A stretch of 42,008 nt of DNA from positions 1 to 42,008 of the forward strand of contig PHCF01000015.1 in assembly GCA_002842145.1 (NCBI GenBank), read 5' to 3'. Made by a program: the position numbers and the translations under genes. Each line of letters begins with the position of its first letter. The first letter of the stretch is position 1. Below, piece after piece: positions 12,832 through 28,175 of the stretch. The DNA is from Betaproteobacteria bacterium HGW-Betaproteobacteria-6 (lineage in GTDB: Bacteria; Pseudomonadota; Gammaproteobacteria; Burkholderiales; Rhodocyclaceae). Under the pieces are notes generated by a model. That model saw nothing but the letters and a program-made list of their open reading frames with translations, had not been told where the DNA came from and searched no databases.

Positions 12832-12954
12832 ATACCATGACACGCCGTCGATACCATGTAGTCTATTTACAAGGTGACATGGTATTAATTTGCAGTAACA
12901 CAATGATTACATTAAAGTTAATGCAAGAATTTCGGTTTGAATGAGTCATGGTAT
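12832..12954. promoter_or_regulatory. Left arm-type site cluster (ATACCATG / CATGGTAT boxes)
   Basis: Four copies of one 8-mer lie in the 306-base gap between guaA and the integrase: ATACCATG at 12832 and 12851, and its complement CATGGTAT at 12878 and 12947. A fifth copy lies at 31179 near the right end. The spacing fits integrase or excisionase arm sites, or operators controlling int. The rest of the gap also carries several TGGCATCG copies and no gene. Confidence 0.45.
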
Positions 12955-12978
12955 TTGAGCCGACACAGACTGAATGCC

Positions 12979-14226: not shown

Positions 14227-14706
14227 ATGGACAGGGACTATGTCTATTTAATCGCCTGCAAAGGTGAGACCAAGACCTACGTAAAGATCGGGCTGACCTC
14301 AAGCATTCAACGCCGTCTGTCCAATATTCAGACCGGTTGCCCACATCCGATCGCGCACGCCTTCGTTGTGCGTTCTGAGTACCGCGAAGAGGTGAAAGGG
14401 CTAGAGAAGCTACTACACAAGCTTCTGGAGCCAGCGCGCCTTCGTGCCGAATGGTATGAGGGAACCACGAGCTTCTTTGAAACGCTTGACGCGGTGCTTT
14501 CGAGGATAAACGCTGGCGGCTTTACCTATGAAGACCTTCTGGAGATGCCGGATTTCGTAGGGTTAGAGTTTGAAATCATGATGCATCGACATGATTTCGA
14601 ATTTCTGAGAGTTCAATTGCCCATTAGGAGGGCGCGCTACCCATTGAAGGACGCTAGAAGCGCATGTGGTGCGGACATTGCGGGCATCCTGTTGAGAGGC
14701 GCCTAA
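14227..14706 (+). CDS. GIY-YIG family protein (T5orf172/MUG113-like)
   Basis: Protein of 159 aa. The N-terminal half has the arrangement of T5orf172-type GIY-YIG nucleases: YVYLIACKGE, then YVKIGLTSSIQRRLSNIQTGCPHPIAHAFVV, and a conserved Glu/Trp region (LRAEWYEG). The family includes nicking or structure-specific endonucleases, but members in islands are mostly uncharacterised. The C-terminal third has no motif I recognise. It follows the integrase by 36 bases on the same strand and may be co-transcribed. Confidence 0.65.
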   Translation: MDRDYVYLIACKGETKTYVKIGLTSSIQRRLSNIQTGCPHPIAHAFVVRSEYREEVKGLEKLLHKLLEPARLRAEWYEGTTSFFETLDAVLSRINAGGFTYEDLLEMPDFVGLEFEIMMHRHDFEFLRVQLPIRRARYPLKDARSACGADIAGILLRGA

Positions 14707-14795
14707 CACGTCGCCGTTTTGTCAAAGGTGCTTTGCAGGAGAGACGGCACCGCGCGCGTCGCCCGCAATATTATCGATATTGGATGTATTGAGCT

Positions 14796-14810
14796 TTTTA
14801 GCCGCTAAAA
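14796..14810. promoter_or_regulatory. KorB-type operator, site 1
   Basis: TTTTAGCCGCTAAAA contains the 13-bp RK2 KorB operator TTTAGC-S-GCTAAA with an extra T and A. It overlaps the alpA stop codon, between two convergent genes. Confidence 0.8.
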
Positions 14811-15062
14811 ATGTCCCGTAGAGCCGCTGGCATTGATGGGCGGGCTGAAGCCAGGACGCATGGCCTGAGCACCTGACGACTTGCGCGCCTCGATCCATTT
14901 CTCGACTTCGGCCAAATCCCAGGCGACGTTTCGGCTGGTGAGTGCGATCCGGCGCGGAAACTCCCCGCGCTGCTCCATGTTGAAAATCGTGCGTTCAGAC
15001 AACGGAATCATTGCCAGCAGCTTCTTGCGGTTGATGAGCGTCTTGCTTGTCGTTGCCTGCAT
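14805..15062 (-). CDS. AlpA-family excisionase/regulator
   Basis: Small MerR/AlpA-type helix-turn-helix protein of 85 aa: LINRKKLLAMIPLSERTIFNMEQRGEFPRRIALTSRNVAWDLAEVEKWIEARK. Proteins of this type act as excisionases or as activators of integrase genes in islands. The start ATG 15062 has GAGG seven bases upstream; an upstream in-frame ATG at 15134 would add an unrelated tail. The TAG stop lies inside a KorB-type operator. Confidence 0.85.
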   Translation of the reverse strand: MQATTSKTLINRKKLLAMIPLSERTIFNMEQRGEFPRRIALTSRNVAWDLAEVEKWIEARKSSGAQAMRPGFSPPINASGSTGHF

Positions 15063-15165
15063 CTCCTGGCCTCTTTCAGTCACTTGCGAACATGTGCCTG
15101 ATGGTGCCTGGTGAAGTGGGTTGATTTGGTCCAAATGTTGGCGATTATGGTTGACAAGATGGGCA

Positions 15166-16236
15166 TCAAAAAACGAAGTGCCTATTGGGTTTCCTCAGGT
15201 CGAATACTTCGGAAATCGATGCCAGTGCTTTAGATACCGCTTGGCGGGTCAGCGGTTTTTGTCCATGGCCTTGCAACTTGCTTGCGATCACTGATTGATT
15301 GAACCCGGAATGTAGAAGAACCAGCATTTTTTTCTTGGTGTCCGACAGCTTTTTGTCCACCATCAACCGGGCCAGATTGCGCAGGGCTGCTTTGTCTGCC
15401 GGCTGCACTCCCTTGTGCAGCAAGTAGCGGTAGTAATAGCTATCTACCAGCGGATCTCCTGACGCCGCTGCCTGTGGTGAGGATGGCCTGGCGCATTGGC
15501 GGCTGAGCCTCGCCACCTCGACTTCAAACTGGCTGAGCGACCGCTTCGCTTGTCTGTATACAGGGTTCCACTCGCCATTCGGGAGTTTGGGGCGATGCCT
15601 GTTGCAATACTGATGGCTGAGTTCAAGCTTCTTGCGGTTTTCAAGCTCCACATCATTGACCTTCTCTTCGGCGACGTTGGCCATGAAGGCTGAAAACTCC
15701 GAAAGATTTCCGCAGAAATCGCAAAAGCCGTGTTTGCGTTCTGCATTGAGACTGACGCCCCTGACGGCAGTCGAGGTTTTTGGACGCTTTCGGCCGCAGT
15801 CACTAACCAAGTCGATTAATGATTCGAACGCGGCAACAAAGCGTTGATCTCTGGCTGTTTGCTTGTCTTCGGTCTTGATGAACTGGCGTAGCAACTGCCG
15901 TTGCACACGAACCATCGCATCAAACCCGACAAGCCGAATGATTGCGCTGAAGCCGATTCCTGTTCCCGCGCCGGGGACGTAACCAGAATAACGTGCCGGT
16001 AGAGTTGCCAAGTACGCGCTCACGGCGGGGTCGACCACTTCGTGGATCAGTCGCCAGATGGGGTAGCGTCTCGAGGATATGGAGTATGGCTTCCAGCGTT
16101 CACGAAAGTCTCTGATGGCCTGAGAAACGCCAGGGGCGCACCCTTGCCAGATGGCAATGTAGTAAGGGCCAAGGCGTTTTTGCGCGTCTTCTTCACTTTC
16201 CATGTCAACCATTATCGACAACAAATAGGCTCCCAT
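15166..16236 (-). CDS. Unrecognised protein with Cys/His cluster and C-terminal helix-turn-helix
   Basis: About 356 aa from ATG 16236; starts at 16212 or 16203 are also possible. The frame stays open to 16728, but that part overlaps two well-supported plus-strand genes and is rejected. I do not recognise the family. A possible zinc site is formed by FCDFCGNLSEF and YCNRHRPKLP (about residues 215-250). The C-terminus (SGFNQSVIASKLQGHGQKPLTRQAVSKALASISEVFD) reads as a helix-turn-helix; LTRxAVSxA resembles the KorA/TrfB recognition helix. It is divergent from the rep operon across 57 bases, so it could regulate replication. Confidence 0.6.
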   Translation of the reverse strand: MGAYLLSIMVDMESEEDAQKRLGPYYIAIWQGCAPGVSQAIRDFRERWKPYSISSRRYPIWRLIHEVVDPAVSAYLATLPARYSGYVPGAGTGIGFSAIIRLVGFDAMVRVQRQLLRQFIKTEDKQTARDQRFVAAFESLIDLVSDCGRKRPKTSTAVRGVSLNAERKHGFCDFCGNLSEFSAFMANVAEEKVNDVELENRKKLELSHQYCNRHRPKLPNGEWNPVYRQAKRSLSQFEVEVARLSRQCARPSSPQAAASGDPLVDSYYYRYLLHKGVQPADKAALRNLARLMVDKKLSDTKKKMLVLLHSGFNQSVIASKLQGHGQKPLTRQAVSKALASISEVFDLRKPNRHFVF

Positions 16237-16293
16237 CAAGCATGGCGCTGCGTAACCTTCGTTGCAATTCAGTTGATAACGGAGGTTTACGCA

Positions 16294-16527
16294 ATGACGA
16301 TAGAAGACACGCTGTTGCAACGCTTCGGCCCGCTGCTGAGCATGGCTCAGCTCGCCACGGTCCTGGATCGTTCGCCTGATGGATTGCGGATCAGCTTGCG
16401 TGCGACGAACCAATGGACGCGGCGGATCAACAAGGCCCGTTTGAAGATCGGCCGGCGGGTCTACTTCCGAACCTCGCAGATCGCCGACGTTTTGAGCGAC
16501 GAATCCCTGTACGAAACGGGGAACTGA
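16294..16527 (+). CDS. Small HTH-type protein, first gene of the rep operon
   Basis: 77 aa, with GGAGG eight bases before the ATG. The sequence LLQRFGPLLSMAQLATVLDRSPDGLRISLR ... KIGRRVYFRTSQIADVL suggests a small winged-helix or AlpA/PrtN-like DNA-binding protein. It is a paralogue of the protein at 21,174, which heads the traK operon. The next gene, repA, starts 3 bases after its stop, so it may regulate the copy number of the replication genes. Confidence 0.75.
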   Translation: MTIEDTLLQRFGPLLSMAQLATVLDRSPDGLRISLRATNQWTRRINKARLKIGRRVYFRTSQIADVLSDESLYETGN

Positions 16528-16530
16528 GGA

Positions 16531-17409
16531 ATGGCGATTGATGTACTGGCGGCGTTCGAGCAAGAGCCGCCGGTCCTGGATTTCATATGGCCCGGCTTCC
16601 TTGCAGGGACTGTCGGCGCGCTCGTCGCTCCAGGAGCCACGGGTAAGAGCTTCTGGGCGTTGGAAGCGGCTATGAGCATCGCGTGCAGTGTCGCTGGCGG
16701 CGACCTCGTGGGTCTTGCCCCCGCACACGCCGGGCGCGTGGTCTATCTAGCCGGGGAAGATCCACCGCCTGCGCTTGTGCGGCGCATTCACGCCATAGGC
16801 CAGCATCTTGGGCACACAGCCCGCCAAGCGATTGCGGAGAACCTCGCGCTTGAGTCGATCATGGGCAAGCGCCTGAACATCATGGACGATGCGCACTTGC
16901 GCCGCGTCGTTGAGTACAGCGCCGGGGCGCGGCTGATCGTGCTGGACACGCTAAGCCGCATTCACGCCCTCGATGAGAACAGCAACGGAAACATGGCTCA
17001 GCTCGTGGCCGTGCTGGAGCACGTTGCAGCCACCACGGGCGCATCCGTGCTCTACCTGCACCATGTCAGCAAGGGAAGCGCCCGCGAAGGTCAGACCGAC
17101 CAGCAGCAGGCCGCGCGTGGCGCGTCCGCACTGATCGACAACGCCAGGTGGTGTGGCTACGTCGCCCGCATGACCGAGGACGAGGCAAAGCGCCTTAGCG
17201 ACCGCACCCATGACCGGCAGCCCATCGGCAACGAACGTCGCAGCTACTTTGTGCGTTTCGGCGTCAGCAAGCAGAACTACGACGCTACGCAACTTGATCG
17301 CTGGTACTTGCGGCACGCGGGCGGTGTTCTGGTGCCGGTGGACCTGCATGAGGTCAGCCGGGCCGAAGAAAGCGGACGTGATGGCCGGAGGCGCGGCGAT
17401 GGCTTTTGA
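16531..17409 (+). CDS. repA: IncQ-type replicative helicase RepA
   Basis: RSF1010-type hexameric DNA helicase of 292 aa (RSF1010 RepA is 279). Similarity runs end to end: DVLAAFEQEPPVLDF, Walker A APGATGKS (residues 33-40), VVYLAGEDPPPAL, Walker B region LIVLDTLSRIH, LYLHHVSKGSAR, DQQQAARGASALIDNARW and VRFGVSKQNYDA. It unwinds DNA at the origin after RepC binds iterons. Its last 11 bases overlap the start of repC, as in IncQ plasmids. RepB primase, the third IncQ component, is not encoded anywhere in the island. Confidence 0.93.
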   Translation: MAIDVLAAFEQEPPVLDFIWPGFLAGTVGALVAPGATGKSFWALEAAMSIACSVAGGDLVGLAPAHAGRVVYLAGEDPPPALVRRIHAIGQHLGHTARQAIAENLALESIMGKRLNIMDDAHLRRVVEYSAGARLIVLDTLSRIHALDENSNGNMAQLVAVLEHVAATTGASVLYLHHVSKGSAREGQTDQQQAARGASALIDNARWCGYVARMTEDEAKRLSDRTHDRQPIGNERRSYFVRFGVSKQNYDATQLDRWYLRHAGGVLVPVDLHEVSRAEESGRDGRRRGDGF

Positions 17410-18268
17410 CCTCACCCATGCCAGGCACGACCCAATGCACTGCTTGGTCCCCGGCTTGTTCCGCAGCCTCAAGCGCGGTGAGCGGAAGAAGCTCAAGCTC
17501 GATGTGACGTATCACTACGCCGAGAATGAACAAGCGCGGTTCGTCGGCTTCGAGCCTCTTGGCGCTGATGACATGCGGCTGCTGCAAGGTCTTGTGGCTC
17601 TTGGAGGACCGAGGGGCATCATCCTGACGCCAGAGCCAACAGCGGACTTGCCGAAGCAACTCCGTCTATTCCTTGAGCCGAAGTTCGACGCGGTAGGGCA
17701 GGATGCGCTGGTCGTGCGTGAGAGCATGACAAGCCTGCTAGCCGAAATCGGCTTGACCGATGGCGGCGACAATATCAGGGCGATCAAGGCGAGTTTGCTG
17801 CGCATGGCAAACGTGACGGTGGTAGTCACCAAGGGGAGTAGGCAAAGGTCTTTTCACTTGATGAGCTACGCCTTCGACGAGGAGGACGGACGGTTATTCG
17901 TCGCGCTGAACCCACAGATCGCGGAGGCGATTCTTGGGCGGCGTCCGTATACCCGCATTGAGATGGCCGAAGTGCGGGCGCTACAAACCGACCCGGCCCG
18001 CCTGATTCATCAGCGGCTATGCGGCTGGATCGATCCCGGCAAAGCCGGGCGCGTGGAACTGGATACTCTTTCCGGTTACGTCTGGCCGGACGAGGCGAAC
18101 GCCGAGGCCATGAAGAAGCGCCGCCAGAAGGCCCGCAAGGCTCTGGCCGAGCTTGCCGCCGTGGGCTGGGAGGTCTGCGAGTATGCGGCAGGGAAGTGGG
18201 AAATTGGCAGGCCGAAGCCCGTAGTAACGTTCCCCAAGCTCCGTAGCAATGTTCCCCTTCACCCGTAG
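17399..18268 (+). CDS. repC: IncQ-type replication initiator RepC
   Basis: Iteron-binding initiator of 289 aa (RSF1010 RepC is 283). Clear similarity from the first residues: LTHARHDPMHCLVPGLFRSLKRGERKKLKLDVTYHY, EPLGADDMRLLQGLVAL, LRLFLEPK, RLFVALNPQIAEAILG, TRIEMAEVRALQT, LIHQRLCGWIDPGKAGRVELDTLSGYVWPDE and KRRQKARKALAELAAVGW. The ATG at 17399 has GGAGG seven bases upstream. The frame is open upstream inside repA; 17381 is the other candidate. Its 3' end runs into the three iterons. Confidence 0.92.
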   Translation: MAFDLTHARHDPMHCLVPGLFRSLKRGERKKLKLDVTYHYAENEQARFVGFEPLGADDMRLLQGLVALGGPRGIILTPEPTADLPKQLRLFLEPKFDAVGQDALVVRESMTSLLAEIGLTDGGDNIRAIKASLLRMANVTVVVTKGSRQRSFHLMSYAFDEEDGRLFVALNPQIAEAILGRRPYTRIEMAEVRALQTDPARLIHQRLCGWIDPGKAGRVELDTLSGYVWPDEANAEAMKKRRQKARKALAELAAVGWEVCEYAAGKWEIGRPKPVVTFPKLRSNVPLHP

Positions 18269-18285
18269 CAACGTTCCCCACCTTC
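18220..18285 (+). repeat. Three 22-bp iterons, probable RepC binding sites
   Basis: Direct repeats start at 18220, 18242 and 18264, exactly 22 bp apart. The conserved part is CGTAGYAAYGTTCCCC and the last 6 bases vary. They overlap the last codons of repC and its stop. A 22-bp period next to an IncQ-type repC is the standard arrangement of an iteron origin. Confidence 0.85.
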
Positions 18286-18596
18286 AACCGGAAAACACAG
18301 CAACGGCGGGGGCTTGCGGCTAGTTCGCAAGTTTCATCCATGATCTTCCAAGATCATCCACTAGGCGCGGCACTTTCCGCCGCCCTTTAGGGCGACGCCA
18401 AGGCCTTGCCGATGGTCGGCCTTCGGCCGTTGGGTTGTACGCCAGAAGGGTTGTTGCCTCCGGCCGCAACATGCCACAACATCAACGCCATAAGACTTTG
18501 AGGACTGAAAGCAATCGGCCAAATGCTGCCACTGGCCAATGACCGCAATGTGGATAATTGCTTTTGCGGTTTTATAAGTTATCCCGCTACGCTCGG
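18286..18596. other. Probable oriV region, no gene
   Basis: About 310 bases after the iterons without a credible gene. They contain a perfect 8-bp-arm palindrome (ATGATCTTCCAAGATCAT at 18340-18357), a CGCCC-TTTA-GGGCG hairpin at 18381-18394, a DnaA box at 18549-18557 and an adjacent A+T-rich patch (to about 18581). These are the parts expected of an iteron-controlled origin. The hairpins could be single-strand initiation sites. Confidence 0.55.
18549..18557 (-). promoter_or_regulatory. Consensus DnaA box
   Basis: TTATCCACA on the minus strand, a perfect match to the E. coli DnaA box TTATNCACA, beside the A+T-rich patch of the putative origin. IncQ origins are normally DnaA-independent. Confidence 0.6.
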
Positions 18597-20039
18597 CTAC
18601 GTTGAGGAGCCTCGCGGAGGAATGACGCCCGTCATGGTTATGTGGGTCTCCTCAAATTCATCGGCGGCCCTATCAAAGATCAACTTGGCTTCGAAGAAAA
18701 TGCGCTGAATCGCTTCCATGTTCGTTTGGCCGTCGTCCCCAGCTTCCGCATTTATGAAATGCGCGTCAAACGATGGGATGTTGGCCACATACACGGGTGT
18801 GGGAGCGGAGACAGTCCAGATGACAGTCCTCAGTTCAAACTCACACATGAACAGGATGCCGGCCTCTTCGATGCGTGTGTTTGAGATCACACTGAGGTCT
18901 TCGATCCCTTCAAAGTCCTCTACCTTGAAGCTGCTGATCGATTCAAGGCATTCATCAGGAACTCCATTGCTCCGAAGGAACCTGCAGGCTGTCTTTACAG
19001 GCACGCTAGACAAGTAGTCGATCGCTGCCTGAGATAGGGCTTCATCTATGTCGTGCGAGTGGTCATCCATGAACGTCTCGAGCTGCTCGTCGTCAAGCGC
19101 GATGTTCGTGGGGCGAATGCGCGCGGGTCCAACCGCGTCGACGAACTGCTTCATTTCCTCAGCAGTCATGGTCATGACCACGTCGCCGCGGCGAGATCTC
19201 TTTACATTCCCCTTCAGCTTGACAAGCCCTAGATCCCGTGTAGACAACAGCGTGACCTTCCCTCTCTGTAGCCACGGCGCTGTGAGATTGATCGAGTGTC
19301 TCATGACATCCCAGATCAATGTAACGTAACTCGGCCCTCCGTCGAACGAGGAGGAAACTACACCGATCACATATCCATCATCGTTGGCGACAGGGCCGCC
19401 GCTCATTCCGCCGAAGGTATCCATGGCGACCTCGATACAGGCTGCGGGCATGCGTTCTCCTCGTCCGTCCGGGAACACGGCCGTGACTAGGCCCGACGAA
19501 ACCAAAGGAGTAAGGCGAGATGTCTTTGCCTCGAAGTCGTGATGTCGGTAGCCAAAGGCCCACAGTCGATCTCCAACGAGGGGAAGGGCGACCTGGAGCG
19601 GCGCCAGTGTGAGCTCGCGATCCACGTGAGCTTCAGAATTAAGTGTGCAACTTACCAGCGTAATGTCGGAGTTCGTTCTTCGATGCGCGTCGAACTCGCT
19701 CAACCCGGAACTGGTTACGCTCGAATGCCCTAACCAAGCTCGTGCTCTGCCAGGAAGGAAGGTCATGAAGAGAGGCGGAGAGCCTGTGGCTGCAATTTCT
19801 TCCAGAACGTGGGTGGCTGTGAGTAGGAGACCAGGCCCGATCATTACGCCGCTCCCGATAGGTTCGAACCCTTCATCCGTAGAGCGAATCACTGCTACGA
19901 GAGAGTCGCCTGCCTGATGCAAGGAATCCATAGGGCCGATGCCGTCGTCGGGGCTGAACTTCGCCGTCTGCCACGACCGTTTTAGTTTCCAAAGGTCGTC
20001 GTTAGCATTCGTAATAAGTGCTTGGTGCTCCTGTGTCAT
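18597..20039 (-). CDS. Trypsin-like serine protease with unknown C-terminal region
   Basis: 480 aa without a signal peptide, so cytoplasmic. The N-terminal half is a trypsin/HtrA-type protease with all three catalytic residues in context: His77 in LLLTATHVL, Asp125 in NSDITLV and Ser213 in GGMSGGPV. From about residue 260 to the end the sequence is acidic and alpha/beta-like and matches nothing I know. Intracellular trypsin-like proteases with attached variable domains are common in bacterial conflict systems, where they act as effectors; that role is inferred. It is cargo between the origin and the transfer genes, on the opposite strand to them. Confidence 0.8.
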   Translation of the reverse strand: MTQEHQALITNANDDLWKLKRSWQTAKFSPDDGIGPMDSLHQAGDSLVAVIRSTDEGFEPIGSGVMIGPGLLLTATHVLEEIAATGSPPLFMTFLPGRARAWLGHSSVTSSGLSEFDAHRRTNSDITLVSCTLNSEAHVDRELTLAPLQVALPLVGDRLWAFGYRHHDFEAKTSRLTPLVSSGLVTAVFPDGRGERMPAACIEVAMDTFGGMSGGPVANDDGYVIGVVSSSFDGGPSYVTLIWDVMRHSINLTAPWLQRGKVTLLSTRDLGLVKLKGNVKRSRRGDVVMTMTAEEMKQFVDAVGPARIRPTNIALDDEQLETFMDDHSHDIDEALSQAAIDYLSSVPVKTACRFLRSNGVPDECLESISSFKVEDFEGIEDLSVISNTRIEEAGILFMCEFELRTVIWTVSAPTPVYVANIPSFDAHFINAEAGDDGQTNMEAIQRIFFEAKLIFDRAADEFEETHITMTGVIPPRGSST

Positions 20040-20332
20040 ACACCGGATTTTCTCATCATGAGCGGCGAAAGGTTGTTAGGACTTCATTTCGAAAGCCAGC
20101 CGAGTACGGAGGAGGGTGCAGACTGGCGAGATCGCTGCAAAATAGGCCGTCGGAAAAAAGTTGATGGCGACCGCGGCATTCCGGCCGTTTTAACAAGCTG
20201 ACTTAAGCCGTAAATATCCGCTCTCAGGCTATGAATCTTGGTTGCTGAATGGGGGCTTGGGGTCGAGCCGCTCAAGGTCACGCGAATTACAAGCCAACTG
20301 ACTGGGGTTTGGCTGATGGATTTCGCGCTTCC

Positions 20333-20348
20333 GCCCCTCATCAGTCAA
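20333..20348 (-). repeat. RK2-type (TrfA) iteron-like box
   Basis: On the minus strand it reads TTGACTGATGAGGGGC, which differs by one base from the RK2 oriV iteron core TGACAGATGAGGGGC. Identical 16-mer at 27849-27864. Confidence 0.55.
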
Positions 20349-20358
20349 TAGGGCGCCG

Positions 20359-20373
20359 TTTTAGCGGCTAAAA
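20359..20373. promoter_or_regulatory. KorB-type operator, site 2
   Basis: TTTTAGCGGCTAAAA, centred on G instead of C. It lies 11 bases from the iteron-like box and between the minus-strand genes at 20391 and 20039. Confidence 0.8.
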
Positions 20374-20390
20374 TTGTTCTTCCTTGGCGT

Positions 20391-21050
20391 TCAACTGATC
20401 CAGCCGAGTTTCGTTTCCAGCACATCCCAACGCTGATCGGCGGGAATGCCGGCAAGGGGATTGCTGGCGATGGCCGCGAGGTTGGCCCGCACGTCATCGA
20501 GGACCGCAATCCGGCGCAATGCCGCCTGCACATTTTCGTCATCGACGCAGCGCCGGACGCAGCGACACGTTCCTGCGCCACCCAATCCGAGCAGATCATG
20601 ATGCAGCCGATGCAGGGCTACTGCCTTCGCCAAGTGTTGCAGGGTGAGGGGGGCACCGTAGCTCTCGGCCAAGAGCAAATCGGCCTCGAACTCGGCAAGG
20701 GCAACATCAAAGGATTGCCAAGCGTTCAAATCGTCGGCAACGACCACGCGCGATTCTTCCAAGGTGCCCCACATTGCCCGCCATAGGTTGGCCGGTCCAT
20801 CCTGGTGGAGCTGGGGCGCGTCGGGGAACAGCTCCGACAGCGACGCCAAAGCGCGGGTGGACAACGGCTGCTTGCCACTGAAAACAGGCCGCCATTTCTT
20901 TGACTCCTGAGTGTTCGAGGTCCCCTGCATCAATCCATCGTAGCGACCGGCAAACCCATAAACCGAGGTTTCCCCGATACGGTCGCGCAGCATGTGCACC
21001 AGCGCCTTGCTGCGTGTGATTTCTCGTTTACGTTCCGCTGTTGTCTTCAT
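20391..21050 (-). CDS. Hypothetical island protein
   Basis: 219 aa, family not recognised. The N-terminus is basic (MKTTAERKREITRSKALVHMLRDRIGE), the middle contains YGFAGRYDGLMQGTSN and an acidic helix-rich stretch (SFDVALAEFEADLLLAESYGAP), and there is a small cysteine group (GTCRCVRRC). It is divergent from the traK operon across 123 bases that contain a strong inverted repeat, and could share control with it. Nothing points to a function. Confidence 0.6.
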   Translation of the reverse strand: MKTTAERKREITRSKALVHMLRDRIGETSVYGFAGRYDGLMQGTSNTQESKKWRPVFSGKQPLSTRALASLSELFPDAPQLHQDGPANLWRAMWGTLEESRVVVADDLNAWQSFDVALAEFEADLLLAESYGAPLTLQHLAKAVALHRLHHDLLGLGGAGTCRCVRRCVDDENVQAALRRIAVLDDVRANLAAIASNPLAGIPADQRWDVLETKLGWIS

Positions 21051-21127
21051 GGCTCGCTAGGGCATGTTGTCCGGGTAAAAAATTCTTCTCTGATTTACCT
21101 GTCATTCTGCATTAGCACAGCGAAAAA

Positions 21128-21167
21128 TTCACCTCAGTAAGCACTATTTAAATGCTATTGAGGTGAA
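21128..21167. promoter_or_regulatory. Inverted repeat in the traK-operon promoter region
   Basis: TTCACCTCA (21128-21136) and TGAGGTGAA (21159-21167) are perfect 9-bp arms. Between them AGCA and TGCT form an inner pair around an A+T-rich centre. The right arm overlaps the ribosome-binding site of the GTG-started gene at 21174, so a bound regulator would block translation as well as transcription. Confidence 0.6.
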
Positions 21168-21173
21168 ACTGAA

Positions 21174-21407
21174 GTGAGTTCGACTCTCCGTTTCTTGCTG
21201 CAAAAGTACGGCCCGACGCTGACCCTTGATGAGTTGGCCGAGGCCCTGAAGCGCAAACCTGGTGGCGTTCGAGCAGCTTTGTCGATGCGCTCCGAGGCGT
21301 GGGCCATTGAGCTGAACAACCGCAAGGTCTACGTCGGCCGCCGTGTTCATTTTCCCGCTGAAGCTGTTGCTGATCTCTTGGTTGGCGAGAAGAGGCCGGG
21401 CGAATGA
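21174..21407 (+). CDS. Small HTH-type protein, first gene of the traK operon
   Basis: 77 aa from a GTG start with AGGTGA upstream. LLQKYGPTLTLDELAEALKRKPGGVRAALSMRSEAW ... KVYVGRRVHFPAEAVADLL parallels the protein encoded at 16,294 along most of its length, so the two are paralogues placed at the head of the rep and mob operons. It overlaps traK by an ATGA. A regulatory role is inferred from size and position. Confidence 0.7.
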   Translation: MSSTLRFLLQKYGPTLTLDELAEALKRKPGGVRAALSMRSEAWAIELNNRKVYVGRRVHFPAEAVADLLVGEKRPGE

Positions 21408-21802
21408 GTACGTTCCTCGAAGAGCTGGCAAAGTGGGCAAGGGGAGCGAGCCAGACCACCAAACCAAGGCGCAAGGAAACCTTGGCGGCTTTCCTGGCTG
21501 TGCGCGAGGACGTGAAGGAGGCCATTGCTGCCGGCTATGCCCTCAAGACCATTTGGGAGCACATGCACGAAACCGGCCGGGTGTCGTTCCGCTACGAGAC
21601 CTTCCTTCGGCATGTTCGGCGGCACATCACGAATGCGCCGTCAGAGCGTCCCAAGTTGCCCGGCCCAGTGAAGTCGGAGGTACAGGCCAGGGGAATCGAC
21701 GAGTCCAAATCGAAGGAGATTCCTGAACCGAAGAAGAGTGGGGTCCCGTCGGTGGGGCGATTCAACTTCGATCCGACGCCCAATAAAGAGGAACTGCTGT
21801 GA
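21404..21802 (+). CDS. traK: oriT-binding protein TraK (RP4 type)
   Basis: 132 aa (RP4 TraK is 134). It matches RP4 TraK in the core AAFLAVREDVKEAIAAGYALKTIWEHMHETGRVSFRYETFLRHVRRHI and in the ending FNFDPTPNKEELL. TraK wraps and bends DNA beside the nick region and helps assemble the relaxosome. It is translated from an ATGA overlap with the preceding gene, and the oriT lies directly downstream, as in RP4. Confidence 0.93.
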   Translation: MSTFLEELAKWARGASQTTKPRRKETLAAFLAVREDVKEAIAAGYALKTIWEHMHETGRVSFRYETFLRHVRRHITNAPSERPKLPGPVKSEVQARGIDESKSKEIPEPKKSGVPSVGRFNFDPTPNKEELL

Positions 21803-21991
21803 TTGCCGCGCTCACTCGCTGCAACCGCGTGTCTGTTGCGCTGCTGATGCGCTACCGGAACGCCTCAACTGCACCGCTTTCTGCCGTTTCCTGCCGTTAC
21901 TGCCGTGTTGGCGCTCTGTTGCATTTCGATAGCGCGCGCGCTGCGAAAGAATTGCTGTTTCATCCGCGTGAAAGTGGCCTCCGAAGTGCGG

Positions 21992-22080
21992 GCAGGATGT
22001 GTGAAGTAGGCCCACCCGCAAGCGGGCGTTCCTTCTTCACTGTCCCTTATTCGCGCCGTAGGCGCTCAACGGGAATCCTG
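21992..22080 (-). other. oriT: Origin of transfer (oriT), RP4/RK2 type
   Basis: The nick region reads ATCCTG-C on the minus strand, with the expected cleavage between complements of 21993 and 21992. Next to it GTGAAGTAGG...CCTTCTTCAC (22001-22040) is the imperfect inverted repeat that TraJ binds, with CCCACCCGC facing GCGGGCG inside. Then follow TGTCCCTTATTCGC and CTCAACGGGAATCCTGC, which RK2 oriT also has in the same order. Placement between traK and traJ matches RP4. The 319-base traK-traJ gap holds no convincing gene. Confidence 0.93.
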
Positions 22081-22121
22081 CCCTGCGGGGCCGGTGGCTG
22101 CTGCCGCGAGTGGGGTACGCC

Positions 22122-22490
22122 ATGAGCGAAACGCTACCCACGCGCAAGGACTGCTCGCCACTCAAAGTGTATTGCCGCCCTGACGAACGCGAGCGCATCG
22201 AGGCCAATGCCAGGGATGCCGGCATGAGCGTCGCCCGTTTCCTGCGCGAGGTGGGCCAGGGCTACCGCGTGCGTGGCATCGTGGACTTCGAGCAAGTCCG
22301 CGAGCTGGCGCGGATCAATGGCGATCTTGGCCGCCTGGGCGGCCTCCTGAAGCTGTGGCTCACCGATGACGTGCGCACCGCCAGGTTTGGCGAGGCGACC
22401 GTTCGGGCGCTGCTGGAGCGCATCGAAACAACCCAAGACCAGATGGCCGGAGTTATGCGGGCAATCGTTCGCCCCAAGGCCGAGGACTGA
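22122..22490 (+). CDS. traJ: Relaxosome protein TraJ (RP4 type)
   Basis: 122 aa (RP4 TraJ is 123). Nearly collinear with RP4 TraJ: PTRKDCSPLKVYCRPDERERIEANARDAGMS, VGQGYRVRGIVDFEQVRELARINGDLGRLGGLLKLWLTDDVRTARFGEATVRALL and VMRAIVRPKAE. It binds the oriT inverted repeat and positions TraI. The start ATG 22122 is chosen over an upstream in-frame GTG (22110) by comparison with RP4. It is followed within 4 bases by a KorB-type operator. Confidence 0.95.
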   Translation: MSETLPTRKDCSPLKVYCRPDERERIEANARDAGMSVARFLREVGQGYRVRGIVDFEQVRELARINGDLGRLGGLLKLWLTDDVRTARFGEATVRALLERIETTQDQMAGVMRAIVRPKAED

Positions 22491-22493
22491 ATT

Positions 22494-22508
22494 TTTTAGC
22501 CGCTAAAA
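22494..22508. promoter_or_regulatory. KorB-type operator, site 3
   Basis: TTTTAGCCGCTAAAA, between traJ and trbJ, 17 bases before the trbJ start and just upstream of its AAGGAG. Confidence 0.85.
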
Positions 22509-22524
22509 CCGAAAGGAGATCGAC

Positions 22525-23292
22525 ATGAAAAAAACCAACGTAGCCGCGATCGTCGCCCTGATGCTTACCCTTGCCGGCGGCGCTTCCATGCCGGCGCACG
22601 CGGGTATCCCCGTTATCGACGCGGGGAACCTGACGCAAAACATCATGACGGCAATCGAAGAGGTTGCCCAAACCGCCAAGCAGATCGAGCAGTACCAGAC
22701 CCAATTGCAGCAGTACGAAAACATGCTGCAAAACACGGCCGCGCCGGCGGCCTACATCTGGGATCAGGCGCAGTCGACCATCAACGGCCTGATGAATGCG
22801 ACGAACACCCTGAACTACTACAGGAACCAGCTCGGCAGCATCGACGCCTACCTGGGCAAGTTCCAGGACGTCGCCTACTACAAGTCGTCGCCGTGCTTCT
22901 CGGCCACCGGCTGCACGGCCGCCGAGTGGGCGGCCATGAAGCAAAACCAGGCGCTGGCCTCGGAGTCGCAGAAGAAGGCCAATGACGCGCTGTTCAAGGG
23001 CCTGAATCAGCAGCAAGACAACCTGCAAGCGGACGCGGCGACGCTGCAACGCTTGCAGTCGTCGGCCCAGGGCGCGAGCGGCCAAATGCAAGCCCTCGGC
23101 TACGCCAACCAGCTCGCCAGCAACCAGGCGAACCAGCTCTTGCAGATTCGTGCCCTGCTGATCGCGCAGCAAAACGCGGTCGCCTCCAAGATGCAGGCCG
23201 ACGCTGACCGCGAGGCGCGGCAGCAGGCGGCCGGAGAAGCAATGTTCGGCATGGGCGGGCCGACTGATCGCAGCAAGGCCAAGGGGTACTGA
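22525..23292 (+). CDS. trbJ: TrbJ, mating-pair/entry-exclusion protein
   Basis: 255 aa, exported: signal peptide MKKTNVAAIVALMLTLAGGASMPAHA, then GIPVIDAGNLTQNIMTAIEEVAQTAKQIEQYQTQLQQYENMLQNT, the typical start of TrbJ (VirB5-like). The rest is largely helical and rich in Gln and Ala. In RP4, TrbJ belongs to the mating apparatus and, with TrbK, gives entry exclusion. AAGGAG stands six bases before the ATG. The C-terminus MGGPTDRSKAKGY recurs almost exactly at the end of TrbK. Confidence 0.92.
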   Translation: MKKTNVAAIVALMLTLAGGASMPAHAGIPVIDAGNLTQNIMTAIEEVAQTAKQIEQYQTQLQQYENMLQNTAAPAAYIWDQAQSTINGLMNATNTLNYYRNQLGSIDAYLGKFQDVAYYKSSPCFSATGCTAAEWAAMKQNQALASESQKKANDALFKGLNQQQDNLQADAATLQRLQSSAQGASGQMQALGYANQLASNQANQLLQIRALLIAQQNAVASKMQADADREARQQAAGEAMFGMGGPTDRSKAKGY

Positions 23293-23293
23293 C

Positions 23294-23470
23294 ATGAAAA
23301 ATATGATTCGTGCCGTTGCCCTGGTCGCTCTGATGTCCGCCGTGCTCGCAGGGTGCGGTAAGTCCGAGGACGAGGCGCTGAACAAGAGGACACCGGAACA
23401 GCAGCAGAAGGCGAACAAGCTCTATGACATGGGCGGGCCGACTGATCGCCAGAAGAGCAAGGGGTACTGA
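23294..23470 (+). CDS. trbK: TrbK-like entry-exclusion lipoprotein
   Basis: A 58-aa protein. The signal peptide and lipobox are plain: MKNMIRAVALVALMSAVLAGC with Cys21 lipidated, followed by GKSEDEALNKRTPEQQQKANKLYDMGGPTDRQKSKGY. Size, lipobox and position between trbJ and trbL match TrbK, the inner-membrane lipoprotein that stops redundant transfer into cells already holding the element. Spacing to both neighbours is 1 to 2 bases, so translation is coupled. The last 13 residues duplicate the TrbJ tail. Confidence 0.85.
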   Translation: MKNMIRAVALVALMSAVLAGCGKSEDEALNKRTPEQQQKANKLYDMGGPTDRQKSKGY

Positions 23471-23472
23471 CC

Positions 23473-25032
23473 ATGAGATCCACTTTACTGCGTTTGATGG
23501 TCATGCTGTCGGTGTTGCTGATGTCTCACACAGCGTCGGCAGCAATAGACAAGAGTGGCGTGCTCGACACGGTTGCGGATCGCTTCCTGATGGAAAGCGC
23601 GACGTGGGGCACGACGATCACCGGCTATGCCTCCTGGCTATTTTGGACCTTGATTCTCATTTCGATGGTATGGACATTCGGGATGATGGCCTTGCGCAAG
23701 GCCGACATCGGCGAGTTCTTTGCTGAGTTCATCCGCTTCACGATGTTTACCGGGTTCTTCTGGTGGCTGCTTGAGAATGGCCCGCACTTCGCAATTGACA
23801 TCATCAACTCGTTGCGCGACATCGGGGCCGCTGCCGGTGCTACGAGGACGCTGACACCGTCCGCGCCGATAGACATTGCCTTTGACATCATTGGCAAGGC
23901 GGCCGACAACTACAGCGTTCTGAGCCCGATCGACAATCTGGCGATATTCTTCACGACCCTCGCCATTTTGGCGTGCATGGGCGTCGTTGCCGCGAATGTG
24001 CTGCTAGCACTCGTTACCGCGTGGGTGATGGCCTATGCCGGCATCTTTGTATTGGGCTTTGGCGGCTCGCGCTGGACTTCGGATATCGCCATCAACTACT
24101 TCCGGGCAGTCGTTGGCGTCGCCCTCAAACTAATGACGATGACTTTGCTGATCGGCGTTGCCGTGTCGGTGATGGACGGTTTCTATACCGGCTTGCAACA
24201 GGGGACACCGATGCGCGAGCTGTTAGTGATCTTTGTTGTCTCGCTTGTCCTGGTCGTTCTCATCCATTCGATCCCCAACGTCATTGCAGGGTTGATTCCT
24301 GGTGGCGGTCATGCGGCCAGCTCCGGCAGCTCGTTCAGTGCGGGTGCTATCGCCGGCGCAGCAGTTGGCGCTGGCGCTGCTATTGCTTCCGGTGGTGCGG
24401 CACTGGCCGCCGCCGGCGCGTCAGCAGCGGGTGGGGCTCAGGCTCTGATGGCAGCGGTACGGGCCGGCCAGGCGAATGTTTCTGCCGGCGCTGATGGCGT
24501 ATCAAGCCTTATGAGCGCAATGCGCGGCGCGAACAGCGAGGCGGCTGGGTCATTCTCTGACGCGGCCGGCTTTTCGGGTGGCGGCGGCGACAGCGGCACC
24601 GGCACCGGCAACACCCCCTTCGCTCAGGCGGCCGGTTTTGGTAGCAGCGCAACCGAGTCCGGCCCCAGCGCCGGCGGCAACTCCAAGGGTGGCAACTTCA
24701 AAGCGGCGAACTCGGGCAGTGGGCAACCGTCGAGCGGTGAAGGCAAATCGGGCGGTCTCGTGGCCTCTGCTGCGAATGCCGGAAAGGTGGCTGTCGAAGC
24801 GGGGTCGATCTTGGCCCAGCAAGCGGCAAACAGCATGGTGGACGCCGCGAAGGATCGGATCGGGCAGACCGCCGGTGGTCGGCTTGCCATAGCGATCAAG
24901 GCAAACCAAGCGGCCGGTGAATCCGCGATGCCGGCCTTTGAGGGTAACAGTCTGGCAGCCGGTTCCACCGATGCCGATGCTCAATCCGAAGTAGCCGCAT
25001 TCGCCAACCGCGATAGTGGCAAGGAGGTGTGA
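23473..25032 (+). CDS. trbL: TrbL, polytopic mating-channel protein (VirB6-like)
   Basis: 519 aa. A signal peptide (about residues 1-23) is followed by DKSGVLDTVADRFLMESATWGTTITGYASWLFWTLILISMVWTF and some six hydrophobic segments up to about residue 275, the TrbL/VirB6 plan of an inner-membrane channel component. From there to the end it is Gly/Ala/Ser-rich low-complexity sequence. Motifs SFSDAAGF, PFAQAAGF and SEVAAF in this tail recur in the next small protein. No other channel genes (trbB to trbI) are present, so this subunit can only work with a helper's apparatus. Confidence 0.92.
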   Translation: MRSTLLRLMVMLSVLLMSHTASAAIDKSGVLDTVADRFLMESATWGTTITGYASWLFWTLILISMVWTFGMMALRKADIGEFFAEFIRFTMFTGFFWWLLENGPHFAIDIINSLRDIGAAAGATRTLTPSAPIDIAFDIIGKAADNYSVLSPIDNLAIFFTTLAILACMGVVAANVLLALVTAWVMAYAGIFVLGFGGSRWTSDIAINYFRAVVGVALKLMTMTLLIGVAVSVMDGFYTGLQQGTPMRELLVIFVVSLVLVVLIHSIPNVIAGLIPGGGHAASSGSSFSAGAIAGAAVGAGAAIASGGAALAAAGASAAGGAQALMAAVRAGQANVSAGADGVSSLMSAMRGANSEAAGSFSDAAGFSGGGGDSGTGTGNTPFAQAAGFGSSATESGPSAGGNSKGGNFKAANSGSGQPSSGEGKSGGLVASAANAGKVAVEAGSILAQQAANSMVDAAKDRIGQTAGGRLAIAIKANQAAGESAMPAFEGNSLAAGSTDADAQSEVAAFANRDSGKEV

Positions 25033-25034
25033 CG

Positions 25035-25331
25035 ATGACGACCAAGCGTGCGCGCGATTTCTTTGCCTGCCTGGATGGACAGGACACCGGGGCCGACCAG
25101 GCGCAAGCGGTGCGGTTTGAGCCGGTCGGGGATCAAGCGACCGAGCTAGATGCAGCGGCGGAGGTCGCAGCATTCATTGAGCGGCCCGACACTGATATCG
25201 AGGCGTCCCCAACCATCGCCGGCGGTACGCGCAATTCCGAATGCTGCGGCAGCCTCACGAGGGCTACGCCGTTTTCAGACGCGGCGGGCTTCTACGAAGG
25301 CCGGCCGACACTTCCACATCCCACCTGCTAG
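25035..25331 (+). CDS. Small protein sharing motifs with the TrbL tail
   Basis: 98 aa from ATG 25035; the AAGGAGG at 25021 lies inside the end of trbL, which stops 2 bases earlier. No family recognised. It contains AEVAAFIERPD and TPFSDAAGFYEG, each similar to a piece of TrbL's C-terminal region (SEVAAFANRD, SFSDAAGF, TPFAQAAGF). This suggests it arose from a TrbL tail or binds the same partner. RP4 has trbM at this place, which it does not resemble. Confidence 0.6.
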   Translation: MTTKRARDFFACLDGQDTGADQAQAVRFEPVGDQATELDAAAEVAAFIERPDTDIEASPTIAGGTRNSECCGSLTRATPFSDAAGFYEGRPTLPHPTC

Positions 25332-25342
25332 AGAGGTGAATT

Positions 25343-25627
25343 ATGGCAACCATAGATGCTACCCAAACGATGTTGAGTGCGGAAATGATCCGCGAACGTA
25401 TGACCGACTACGCCGCCGTGCTGAACGATGTTGTGACCGTTCTGTACGCTCCAAGGCAGCGCTTGTCATCTGCTGATCGCCGCGCGATTACCAGGTTGCT
25501 CAATGCCATGACGGATGTGAACACCATGGTGCTTTATCACTTCAACTGCCGGCGTCTCCCAACCGAGAATCTGGTAGAGCTTCATTCGAAGGTTGCCCGC
25601 CTCGCGCCCCAAATTCGAAGGGCTTGA
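25343..25627 (+). CDS. Small hypothetical protein upstream of traI
   Basis: 94 aa, with GAGAGGTGA before the ATG. It is mostly helical (MATIDATQTMLSAEMIRERMTDYAAVLNDVVTVLYAPRQRLSSADRRAITRLLNAMTDVNTMV) with a basic C-terminus. Not recognised. It closes the trbJKL run and is separated from traI by a KorB-type operator. Confidence 0.65.
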   Translation: MATIDATQTMLSAEMIRERMTDYAAVLNDVVTVLYAPRQRLSSADRRAITRLLNAMTDVNTMVLYHFNCRRLPTENLVELHSKVARLAPQIRRA

Positions 25628-25658
25628 ACCCCGGGCGGCCAGCGAGCCGCCCAATCAA

Positions 25659-25673
25659 TTTTAGCGGCTAAAA
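25659..25673. promoter_or_regulatory. KorB-type operator, site 4
   Basis: TTTTAGCGGCTAAAA, ending 9 bases before the traI start. It occupies the place where a ribosome-binding site would lie; no purine-rich site is seen. Confidence 0.85.
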
Positions 25674-25682
25674 CAACGACCC

Positions 25683-27482
25683 ATGATCGCCAAGCACGTT
25701 TCCATGCGCTCGCTCGGCAAGAGTGACTTCGCCGGCCTGGCGAACTACATCACCGACGCGCAGAGCAAAGACCATCGGCTGGGACAGGTGTTGCTCACGA
25801 ACTGCGCGGCCGCGACCCTGCCGGCGGCAATCGAGGAGGTGCTTGCAACCCAGCACATCAACACTCGAGCGAGGAGCGACAAGACCTATCACCTGATTGT
25901 CAGTTTTCGTGCCGGCGAGCAGCCCAGCGCCGATACCCTCAAGGCCATCGAAGAGCGGATTTGTGCCGGGCTGGGCTACGGCGAGCATCAGCGCGTCAGC
26001 GCCGTGCACAACGACACCGACAACCTGCACGTCCACATCGCCATTAACAAGATTCACCCGACCCGCCACACTATCCACGAACCCTATTACCCGCATCGGA
26101 CGCTGGCCGAGCTGTGCGAAGTCCTGGAACGCGACTACAACCTGGAGCGAGACAACCACATCCCGAACCAGCGAGGGGCGGCGGCCAGGGCGGCCGACAT
26201 GGAGCGGCATGCCGGCGTGGAAAGCCTGGTCGGCTGGATCAAGCGCGAGTGCCTGGAAGAAATCCGGGGGGCGACGAGCTGGGCCGAGTTGCACCACTTC
26301 ATGCGAGACAACGGCCTGGAACTGCGCACCCGTGGCAATGGGCTGGTCATCGAGGCAGGCGACGGCACCTCGGTCAAGGCCAGCACCTTGGCCCGCGAGC
26401 TGTCCAAGTCGGCGCTCGAAGCGCGGCTAGGCGGCTTTGAGGCCGCGCCCGAGCGCAGGGAGGCGCAGGCGAAGCGTAGCTACCGGAAAGATCCCGTACG
26501 CCTGCGGATCGACACGACCGAGCTTTACGCCAGATACAAGGATGAACAGAAGAGCTGGACGGTGGCTAGGGCCGAGGCGCTGGTCCAGGCCAAGCGGCAG
26601 AAGGATCGGGCAATCGAAAACGCCAAGAAGCAAGCGGCTGCGAAACGGGCGGCAATCAAGCTGACCGATGGCCGGCTAACCAAGAAGTTGCTGTATGCCC
26701 AGGTCCGTGCCTCGCTGGGGGCCGACCTGGCAGCTATCCGCAAGCACTACGACCAGGAGCGGGCCCAGCACTACCAGAGCTTCCAGCGGCAGCCGTGGGC
26801 CGACTGGCTTAAGCAACAGGCCACCCAAGGCAACGCCGAGGCGCTGGCCGCCTTGCGCGCCAGGGACGCAGCCCAGGGCCTCAAGGGCAACACCATCGAG
26901 GGGCAGGGCCAGCCGCGACCGGGAGGCGCGCCAACTATCGACAACATCACCAAGAAGGGCACGATTATCTATCGCGCAGGCCGGTCGGCTGTCCGGGACG
27001 ATGGCGACCGCCTGCAAGTCTCCCGCGAGGCTGACCGCGACGGGGTACAGGCCGCGCTGCGCATGGCGATGGAGAAGTACGGCGAGCGCATCACCGTCAC
27101 CGGCTCGCCTGAGTTCAAGGCTCAAATCATCCGGGTGGCTGCCGATGCCCAGCTTCAGATTACCTTCACCGATCCAGGCCTGGAGCGCCGCCGCCGGGCG
27201 CTGATACAGCAAGCCGGCCAGGCCAGCACCAGGCCCATCGCAATTCGCTCTGGCGTCCCTCCTGTCGGCCGGAAACCTCCGCCACATCGCCGTCATGGCC
27301 TGCGGACTCTCGGCCAGCTCGACGTGCTGGGCATCGAGGGTAGCGAGACGATGCGGCCGTCGCAAACTACTACGCCAAAGCAGACCGTGGCTGTCAGCGA
27401 GCAGGAGCGCCGGCGGGCGAAGTTGCAGTTGGAGATGGACGCCAAGAAGGCGAAGCATCGAGACAGGGGGAAGTCACGATGA
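25683..27482 (+). CDS. traI: Relaxase TraI (MOBP, RP4 type)
   Basis: 599 aa (RP4 TraI is 732). The relaxase domain follows RP4 from the first residue (MIAKHVSMRSLGKSDFAGLANYITD) and keeps the catalytic Tyr22, Ser74 (YHLIVSFRAGE) and His116 (DTDNLHVHIAINKIHPTRHTIHEPY). The RP4 segment DMERHAGVESLVGWIKRECL is also present. A basic coiled-coil middle is followed by an LPD7-like module (GTIIYRAGRSAVRDDGDRLQVS ... ALRMAMEKYGERITVTGSPEFKAQIIRVAA) near residues 420-500. It nicks oriT and leads the strand through the helper's channel. No primase domain is visible. Confidence 0.95.
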   Translation: MIAKHVSMRSLGKSDFAGLANYITDAQSKDHRLGQVLLTNCAAATLPAAIEEVLATQHINTRARSDKTYHLIVSFRAGEQPSADTLKAIEERICAGLGYGEHQRVSAVHNDTDNLHVHIAINKIHPTRHTIHEPYYPHRTLAELCEVLERDYNLERDNHIPNQRGAAARAADMERHAGVESLVGWIKRECLEEIRGATSWAELHHFMRDNGLELRTRGNGLVIEAGDGTSVKASTLARELSKSALEARLGGFEAAPERREAQAKRSYRKDPVRLRIDTTELYARYKDEQKSWTVARAEALVQAKRQKDRAIENAKKQAAAKRAAIKLTDGRLTKKLLYAQVRASLGADLAAIRKHYDQERAQHYQSFQRQPWADWLKQQATQGNAEALAALRARDAAQGLKGNTIEGQGQPRPGGAPTIDNITKKGTIIYRAGRSAVRDDGDRLQVSREADRDGVQAALRMAMEKYGERITVTGSPEFKAQIIRVAADAQLQITFTDPGLERRRRALIQQAGQASTRPIAIRSGVPPVGRKPPPHRRHGLRTLGQLDVLGIEGSETMRPSQTTTPKQTVAVSEQERRRAKLQLEMDAKKAKHRDRGKSR

Positions 27483-27500
27483 TGAATTCATCGGACAGGC

Positions 27501-27547
27501 GTGTAGCGTGTTGTATGTTGTACGCTACAACTTACAACACGCTACAC
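27501..27547. repeat. Long inverted repeat downstream of traI
   Basis: Two 22-bp arms (27501-27522 and 27526-27547) pair with one mismatch around a CGC loop. The outer part of each arm is GTGTAGCGTGTTGTA or its complement. There is no T tract, so it is more likely a protein-binding or DNA-cruciform site than a terminator. Confidence 0.75.
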
Positions 27548-27559
27548 GGGCCATGCCCT

Positions 27560-27574
27560 TTTTAGCCGCTAAAA
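27560..27574. promoter_or_regulatory. KorB-type operator, site 5
   Basis: TTTTAGCCGCTAAAA, extended by one more T/A pair on each side, immediately before the ATG at 27576 and 13 bases after the long inverted repeat. Confidence 0.85.
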
Positions 27575-27575
27575 A

Positions 27576-27773
27576 ATGCTGAAGACTGAGAGACCTGCCT
27601 ATCGGCTTCTGAACCTCTCCGAATTGGATGCCTTGCGCCTGGACATGTTAGAGGCATCTAAGTGGATGCGTGCTGAATTGCGCCGCCGACGCGCTATGGA
27701 AGAGCAGGGTGGTGGCGATGCGAAGCGCCCGAAACCACTTGTCGGTGTCGTGCATCTGGACAAGTGTAGGTGA
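27576..27773 (+). CDS. Small hypothetical protein
   Basis: 65 aa: MLKTERPAYRLLNLSELDALRLDMLEASKWMRAELRRRRAMEEQ, then a basic tail. Not recognised. The ATG directly follows a KorB-type operator with no ribosome-binding site, so the start, or the gene itself, is uncertain. Confidence 0.4.
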   Translation: MLKTERPAYRLLNLSELDALRLDMLEASKWMRAELRRRRAMEEQGGGDAKRPKPLVGVVHLDKCR

Positions 27774-27884: not shown

Positions 27885-28175
27885 ACGGCACCGGCGGCCA
27901 TCTCCGCTTGCTGAAGATTGGCACGCTCCATCAATCCGCATGCTTGCTGAAGATCGGCGTTTCTGACGATGTAGCCCCTAATTTCGGGGCGGCCATCGCG
28001 CTGACGATGGTTGGTGACGGCTCTTTCAACTCTACTGAGGTATGCCGCGACTTGACTCTTGGGGGGCGAGGGGGGCGGCAACTACCAGGGAACGTTGTCC
28101 AGAAAACGGTCGTCTTTCGGGCGGTTACGCGCTCTTCAACGAGAATGAGCAGAAAATGACAAGGAGAAGGTGAAT
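27885..28175. other. Intergenic region before the HD-HSP90 gene
   Basis: No convincing gene. Two 13-bp direct copies of GCTTGCTGAAGAT (27907 and 27941) read on the minus strand as the peptide repeat LQQA; this could be the end of a lost gene. AAGGAG at 28161 serves the next gene. Confidence 0.4.

Follow-up and report, generated by a model that had tools for sequence, protein, structure and literature searches.

Five KorB operators on a guaA island

The window, by which we mean the whole stretch of 42,008 nucleotides analysed here (contig PHCF01000015.1 of Betaproteobacteria bacterium HGW-Betaproteobacteria-6, assembly GCA_002842145.1), carries an integrative and mobilizable, IncP-type island of approximately 18.6 kb (about 12,661-31,271), inserted at the 3' end of guaA (11032-12672). 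On this island lie five 15-bp palindromes, all perfect and all at the positions reported in an earlier note on this DNA. Each holds the 13-bp core TTTAGC-S-GCTAAA, which has the same letters as the operator described for KorB of plasmid RK2 (PMC2848598), and this supports the identification of the sites as RK2-type KorB operators in that note. No further site with two or fewer mismatches is present in the window, and 100 shuffles gave a mean of 0.04 sites and a maximum of one. The element is wider than the span of the operators (14796..27574) and reaches from guaA to a sequence, starting at about 31,256, in which the 3' end of the gene is imperfectly repeated (15/18 bases).

The operators differ in their surroundings. 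Operator 1 (14796..14810) overlaps the stop codon of alpA between convergent genes, and its flank directly matches solely two of the related loci described below, L084 and L026. Operator 2 (20359..20373) is situated past the 3' end of a 219-aa open reading frame (ORF), between repC and traK, a place where an operator is also found in L019, L026 and L084; its flank matched a korB-bearing locus at none of the thresholds used. Operator 3 (22494..22508) follows traJ and precedes trbJ (ATG 22525), and operator 4 (25659..25673) precedes traI (ATG 25683). Because the flanks of these two operators match that of the traJ-traI slot in IncP loci, the window has apparently duplicated this slot, with one copy on each side of trbJ-trbL; the idea that the operator inside trbJ had shifted to a place upstream of the ATG was dropped, as site 3 matches the traJ-traI slot. 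Operator 5 (27560..27574) follows traI, lies one base before a 65-aa ORF (ATG 27576) and is weakly matched (about 3e-4) by the operator that IncP loci have in the kfrA promoter.

The earlier note had three of these operators overlapping or displacing ribosome-binding sites. This holds before traI and the 65-aa ORF, where the operator occupies the place of the Shine-Dalgarno sequence, but trbJ keeps an intact Shine-Dalgarno-like AAAGGAG between operator 3 and its ATG. Silencing of promoters, which had also been suggested, was not borne out: no sigma-70-like promoter was found at the window operators (one was found elsewhere in the region, where 4.4 were expected), and the KorA operator GTTTAGCTAAAC is absent from the window at up to two mismatches, so that both elements of a KorA-KorB co-repressed promoter were missing there.

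As a mobilizable element the island is of an established type, the "IncP islands" reviewed as integrative and mobilizable elements of Brucella suis and of Burkholderia glumae / Acidovorax avenae (PMC5704250). Like the window, these elements have the guaA site, a tyrosine integrase, IncP-like TraI/TraJ/TraK and TrbJ plus TrbL, and an IncP helper has been proposed for them (PMC5704250). In the island studied here, the tyrosine integrase (12937..14190, plus strand; PF00589; 91% identity to integrases on GIsul2-type records) is encoded at the guaA 3' end, with the imperfect repeat at the right end of the element, an IncP-type relaxase is accompanied by TraJ and TraK, and TrbJ and TrbL are the only type IV secretion families among the scanned island ORFs. 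Downstream of the integrase gene are genes for a T5orf172 / GIY-YIG-like protein (14227..14706, plus; PF10544) and AlpA (14805..15134, minus; PF05930), a likely excisionase, as has been discussed for AlpA of GIsul2 (PMC9376610). They are followed by a 348-aa conserved island ORF (15166..16212, minus), which in the window copy has no Pfam family but has zinc-finger-like cysteines and a weak helix-turn-helix (HTH)-like end; in several islands a KorB operator lies directly past its 3' end. The replication genes encode a RepA-type helicase (AAA_25; 16531..17409, plus) and a protein with RepC of the RSF1010 type over residues 66-336 (17210..18268, plus; PF06504, 517 bits), and a trypsin-like protein with a weak RT-Protease_XI match (18597..20039, minus) represents cargo.

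The mobilization module starts with traK (DUF5338; 21404..21802, plus), which shares its strand with traJ in the window and several islands but is divergent in IncP and pMATVIM-7-type plasmids. A putative IncP-like oriT (21992..22040, minus), which we take to resemble that of RK2, comprises an inverted repeat (22001-22040) and a nic-like ATCCTGC on the minus strand at 21992. It is followed by traJ (NikA-like; 22110..22490, plus), trbJ (22525..23292, plus; relatives are annotated trbJ), trbL (23473..25032, plus; PF04610) and traI, encoding the IncP-type relaxase (25683..27482, plus; PF22863, PF03432, PF18821); most relatives have the order traJ-traI-trbJ-trbL instead. In the 180-bp gap between trbJ and trbL no clear trbK was seen, and the 3' end of trbJ is repeated there; positions 23250-23471 form a 44-bp imperfect direct repeat, in which the end of trbJ recurs 178 bp on, at the expected place of trbK. 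An HD-CE / HSP90-like ATPase (28170..30944, plus) is further cargo; a PADLOC run on six island proteins gave weak partial matches for two and none for this ATPase. KorB, KorA, ParB and ParA families were all absent by Pfam from the scanned island ORFs (the 65-aa ORF at 27,576 lay outside the scan), in agreement with the earlier note.

Orphan operators and KfrA-operator-like repeats in related loci

The comparison started from 80 loci with TraI relatives, four plasmids and this island. Seventy-two loci were kept (L014-L084 and the island), of which 23 bear korA/korB, 40 encode TraI and TrbJ without korA/korB, and nine lack TrbJ and korA/korB; for the 40, korB counts as absent where tblastn at 1e-6 gave no match to KorA or KorB of contig C53 (see below) within the stretch examined. 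The 40 loci are not independent, as L024 and L025 share an organism, and the plasmid sequence in L014 and L017 is duplicated in whole or in part, so that the repeated copies add sites. The search of related islands called for in the earlier note found the operators kept: there are 116 perfect operators in the korA/korB-less loci and at least one in every locus (one in 4 loci, two in 8, three in 20, four in 5, five in 2 and six in 1). On the same loci, 119 permuted palindromes gave a mean of 0.04 and a maximum of 1 and, on this result and the shuffles above, a chance origin is rejected. Decay is slight, with nine one-mismatch sites (six differing at the centre base alone) and six two-mismatch sites beside the 116 perfect ones, compared to averages of 0.55 and 8.4, respectively, for 40 control palindromes. 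Positions flanking the 15 bp reach consensus frequencies of 0.29-0.47. Orphan KorB operators are thus widespread in the IncP-island group, which is a new observation. Beyond this set, operators occur in 0/13 of L085-L097, in which TraI is distant or missing. In a random sample of the phylum, 52/398 genomes have at least one core site; single core sites prove little, because the reversed control pattern also occurs in the sampled genomes, up to seven times in one. Operator clusters examined in seven of these genomes were five trbJ loci without a korB match (four at guaA), none of which had a TraI match, and two korA-incC-korB loci. A guaA island on an E. coli chromosome (L102, 3659-17164) carries trbJ/trbL and two KorB operators and has no annotated relaxase.

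The trbJ genes show what is being conserved. In R751 and most relatives the operator lies inside the TrbJ signal sequence, and 51/54 trbJ genes, picked irrespective of the operator, encode LAAK or LATK at this place (the window, L018 and L055 do not). Fifty of the 54 write it as TTA-GCS-GCT-AAA (GCG or GCC) and one as TTA-GCG-ACT-AAA, whereas TTA accounts for 16/1133 leucines (1.4%) in the rest of trbJ. The 54 genes are related, so that the 50 do not represent 50 independent events; nevertheless, the trbJ operator is shown to be conserved at the DNA rather than the protein level.

By place, the 116 operators divide into 22 that precede traI by at most 60 bp, 38 near the start of trbJ (in two of these cases, the window and L018, it is the traJ-proximal copy) and 56 at other places. 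The traJ-traI operator slot is present in 23/23 korA/korB-bearing loci and R751 also has an operator inside trbJ; therefore, judged by these comparisons, both slots came with the genes. Other contexts appear confined to korB-less loci: there are 12 flank clusters with korB-less members only (35 sites) at an E-value of 1e-4, 16 (39 sites) at 1e-6 and 18 (51 sites) at 1e-8, although most korB-bearing loci are pieces of ~21 kb and counterparts possibly lie beyond them.

Approximately 26 bp from operator 5 lies an inverted repeat (27501..27547; GTTGTATGTTGTA ... TACAACATACAAC) which resembles the KfrA operator of R751 and is the source of the weak match of operator 5 to IncP loci. Its arms, GTATGTTGTA and TACAACATAC, form an extended inverted repeat with at most one mismatch per arm, as in R751, where the same repeat has the KorB and KorA operators on one side and kfrA on the other. 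The R751 KfrA operator (OK) has been described as an extended inverted repeat in the kfrA promoter, bound by KfrA in electrophoretic mobility shift assays (PMC7821693); the letters compared here come from the R751 sequence. The repeat is found in 19/24 korA/korB-bearing loci, R751 among them, and in 22/40 korB-less loci. In 12 of the latter (the window island, L019, L026, L084, L027, L029, L031, L038, L040-L042 and L064) it lies within 60 bp of a KorB operator, and none of these 12 has a match to R751 KfrA. Such a match was obtained by tblastn in 3/40 korB-less loci (L015, L021, L023), with the repeat directly before the gene in all three. Of 200 permuted-arm controls, 192 match nowhere, and the strongest (22 loci) was the same repeat shifted by one base in the three loci inspected. 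In RA3, KfrA is reported to interact with IncC and KorB (PMC7783346).

A possible helper and comparable systems

The assembly of the host (4.3 Mb, 226 contigs) contains seven core sites, five on the island and two on contig C53. This contig (3.7 kb) carries korA, incC and the start of korB and has KorA operators as well as two KorB operators; half of its length matches IncP-1 plasmids at ~68% identity, and its KorB is 74% identical to that of R751 over 219 aa. When C53 KorB is aligned to 1R71, Thr211 and Arg240, which we take to be specificity contacts of RK2 KorB, are unchanged. The genome-wide search for korB proposed in the earlier note thus found none on the island, but a separate IncP-1-like korA-incC-korB fragment in the same assembly; C53 is either a possible helper, separate from the island, or a contig that was binned wrongly. 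Pairs found together in a single strain or bin are C183 and C53, L020 and L068, and plasmids p3-T1 and p2-T1 of Acidovorax sp. T1. In the latter pair, p3-T1 (43 of 56 kb examined) has two operators and no korA/korB match, and p2-T1 (50 of 79 kb examined) has korB, trfA, trb genes and 11 operators.

Several known systems share parts of this arrangement. The RK2/R751 KorB regulon has the same 13-bp operator, the traJ-traI slot, the slot inside trbJ and a KorB operator beside a KfrA operator; R751, however, possesses KorA operators and genes for KorB, KorA, a ParA of the IncC type and a KfrA-type protein, and the island was found to have none of these. Plasmids of the pMATVIM-7 / p3-T1 type have the order traJ-traI-trbJ-trbK-trbL and two to four KorB operators in the examined stretches of L016, L105, L106 and L107 without a korA/korB match, but are autonomous plasmids with their own parA/parC and a KorA operator. 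In the pMATVIM-7-type loci L014-L017 and L105-L107, which lack a korA/korB match, KorB operators are accompanied by a KorA operator near parC; L014, L016, L017, L105 and L107 have an operator directly upstream of parA. In PMC4231636 the operator forms part of a primer sequence next to parABC of pSMC1, and "korb" is not mentioned in the available text. GIsul2 shares with the window a related integrase, alpA, repA, repC and trbJ-trbL (in GIsul2 trbJ-trbK-trbL), with the trbJ operator; no relaxase is annotated in the copies examined. KorB is mentioned neither in the available text of the GIsul2 paper (PMC9376610) nor in that of the IncP-island review (PMC5704250), and a literature search of partial coverage found no paper naming KorB sites on guaA IncP islands.

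The closest functional precedent is Salmonella genomic island 1 (SGI1), a mobilizable island without parA/parB that carries copies of the ParB site of its helper, and these sites have been shown to stabilise SGI1 and destabilise the IncC helper (PMC10954446). The comparison with SGI1 drawn in the earlier note therefore has a published counterpart in the piracy of helper ParB, although by the same token the idea is not new. As in SGI1, several helper-type ParB sites are found here on an island lacking parA/parB, with the KorB of an actual helper as the presumed ligand; however, the two islands are unrelated, the ParB protein and its site differ, and the window has five putative ParB-type sites.

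Proposed loading of helper KorB and alternative readings

We consider it probable that the five palindromes are functional KorB operators, kept by selection, that load the KorB of an IncP-type helper on the island. In favour are the number and slight decay of the operators in korB-less relatives, the TTA codons of trbJ, the contexts without a counterpart in the korB-bearing loci compared, the KfrA-operator-like repeats, the random sample, the co-residence pairs and the likeness of C53 KorB to that of R751. When a helper is present in the cell, its KorB would bind the island operators. KorB of RK2 loads at its operator, closes with cytidine triphosphate (CTP) and slides, and its repression, about fourfold in a reporter when KorB acts alone, is strengthened by KorA (PMC11790492); as such a CTP clamp, the helper KorB may spread over the mobilization module. 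Two effects could follow. The excised circle, which has RepA/RepC genes and for which no partition genes were found, may be tied to the IncC-KorB system of the helper and compete with the helper, as SGI1 does with IncC ParB. Alternatively, KorB may weakly damp traI and trbJ, so that the island relaxase and TrbJ/TrbL would be kept at helper-like levels. We lean modestly towards the first effect, a preference that was slighter before the KfrA-operator-like repeats raised it, and both can hold. Loading and partition fit better than promoter control because the island has no KorA operator, some operators are far from gene starts, and a KfrA-like repeat accompanies operator 5. Of the earlier interpretation, the RK2-type sites, the korB-less island and the keeping of the operators stand; the host assembly does have a korB, promoter silencing is not shown, and part of the slots are inherited.

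A number of observations weigh against the proposal that helper KorB is loaded on the island. Sixty of the 116 operators occupy traI or trbJ slots common to IncP plasmids, as window sites 3 and 4 do in matching the traJ-traI slot, and operators are lacking from 5/9 TraI loci that have neither TrbJ nor korA/korB. GIsul2 has a single operator, in trbJ. That C53 represents a complete helper is not established, because TrbE (R751), TrfA, a PF03135 protein and a second TraI were not found in the assembly (the TrfA control matched nowhere and TrbE was searched without a positive control, so that they may have been missed). PF08535, the family used to search for KorB, had no match in 31/34 carrier genomes and matched in three, two of them over the cut-off (L025 was left out, being the same organism as L024); helper contact would therefore be episodic, or the drafts lack plasmids. 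Since KfrA_N proteins occur elsewhere in 11/17 carrier genomes searched, and on contig C187 of the host assembly, the KfrA-like repeat is not necessarily directed at a plasmid; both added IncP genomes were positive too.

Regulation without any partition role, with helper KorB repressing traI, trbJ and the small ORF to keep the mobilization genes quiet or in step, is a somewhat unlikely alternative. The 22 operators before traI and the 38 by the trbJ start speak for it, as does the repression exerted by KorB alone in the reporter (PMC11790492), but 56/116 operators lie elsewhere, including some that separate convergent genes or stand at the 3' end of a gene, and the window operators have neither a promoter-like site nor the KorA operator that would strengthen repression as in RK2. 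It is unlikely that the replicating circle serves as a decoy, titrating helper KorB and thereby derepressing or destabilising the helper. Several sites per element, the replication genes and the destabilisation of the IncC helper by extra parS copies of SGI1 (PMC10954446) are consistent with such a role; yet 33/40 loci have two to four sites, compared to nine in the examined 50 kb of R751, and titration needs a high copy number. Another reader, either an island DNA-binding protein or the KorB of another plasmid group, is improbable: the conserved 348-aa ORF has a weak HTH-like end and is near an operator in several islands, but its relatives occur in 13/49 loci searched, on which ground it was rejected as the general reader, and the sites are identical to the RK2 operator and to those beside C53 korB. 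That the operators are relics which arrived with the IncP genes and have no present use is very improbable, for although the traJ-traI and trbJ slots are common to IncP plasmids and some operators have next to them a KfrA-like repeat reminiscent of the kfrA promoter of these plasmids, there is little decay, trbJ conserves the rare codons and 12 context clusters are unmatched in the korB-bearing loci compared.

With less than even confidence, we extend the loading of helper KorB to the group as a whole: guaA IncP islands and mobilizable plasmids without korB may in many cases be partition parasites of IncP plasmids, keeping and newly gaining segrosome sites, namely KorB loading sites that frequently have a KfrA-type operator next to them, with their circles riding on and pushing out the helper via IncC-KorB whilst the helper clamp also sets the level of the relaxase. 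If true, this would be a second, unrelated parS theft of the SGI1 type, widespread and partly written inside a coding sequence. It also makes testable what KorB operators away from promoters are for. IncP plasmids and the elements mobilized by them carry genes between distant bacteria; if the islands read helper KorB, a plasmid master regulator governs elements that are not its own, and the partition machinery of the plasmid may carry them.

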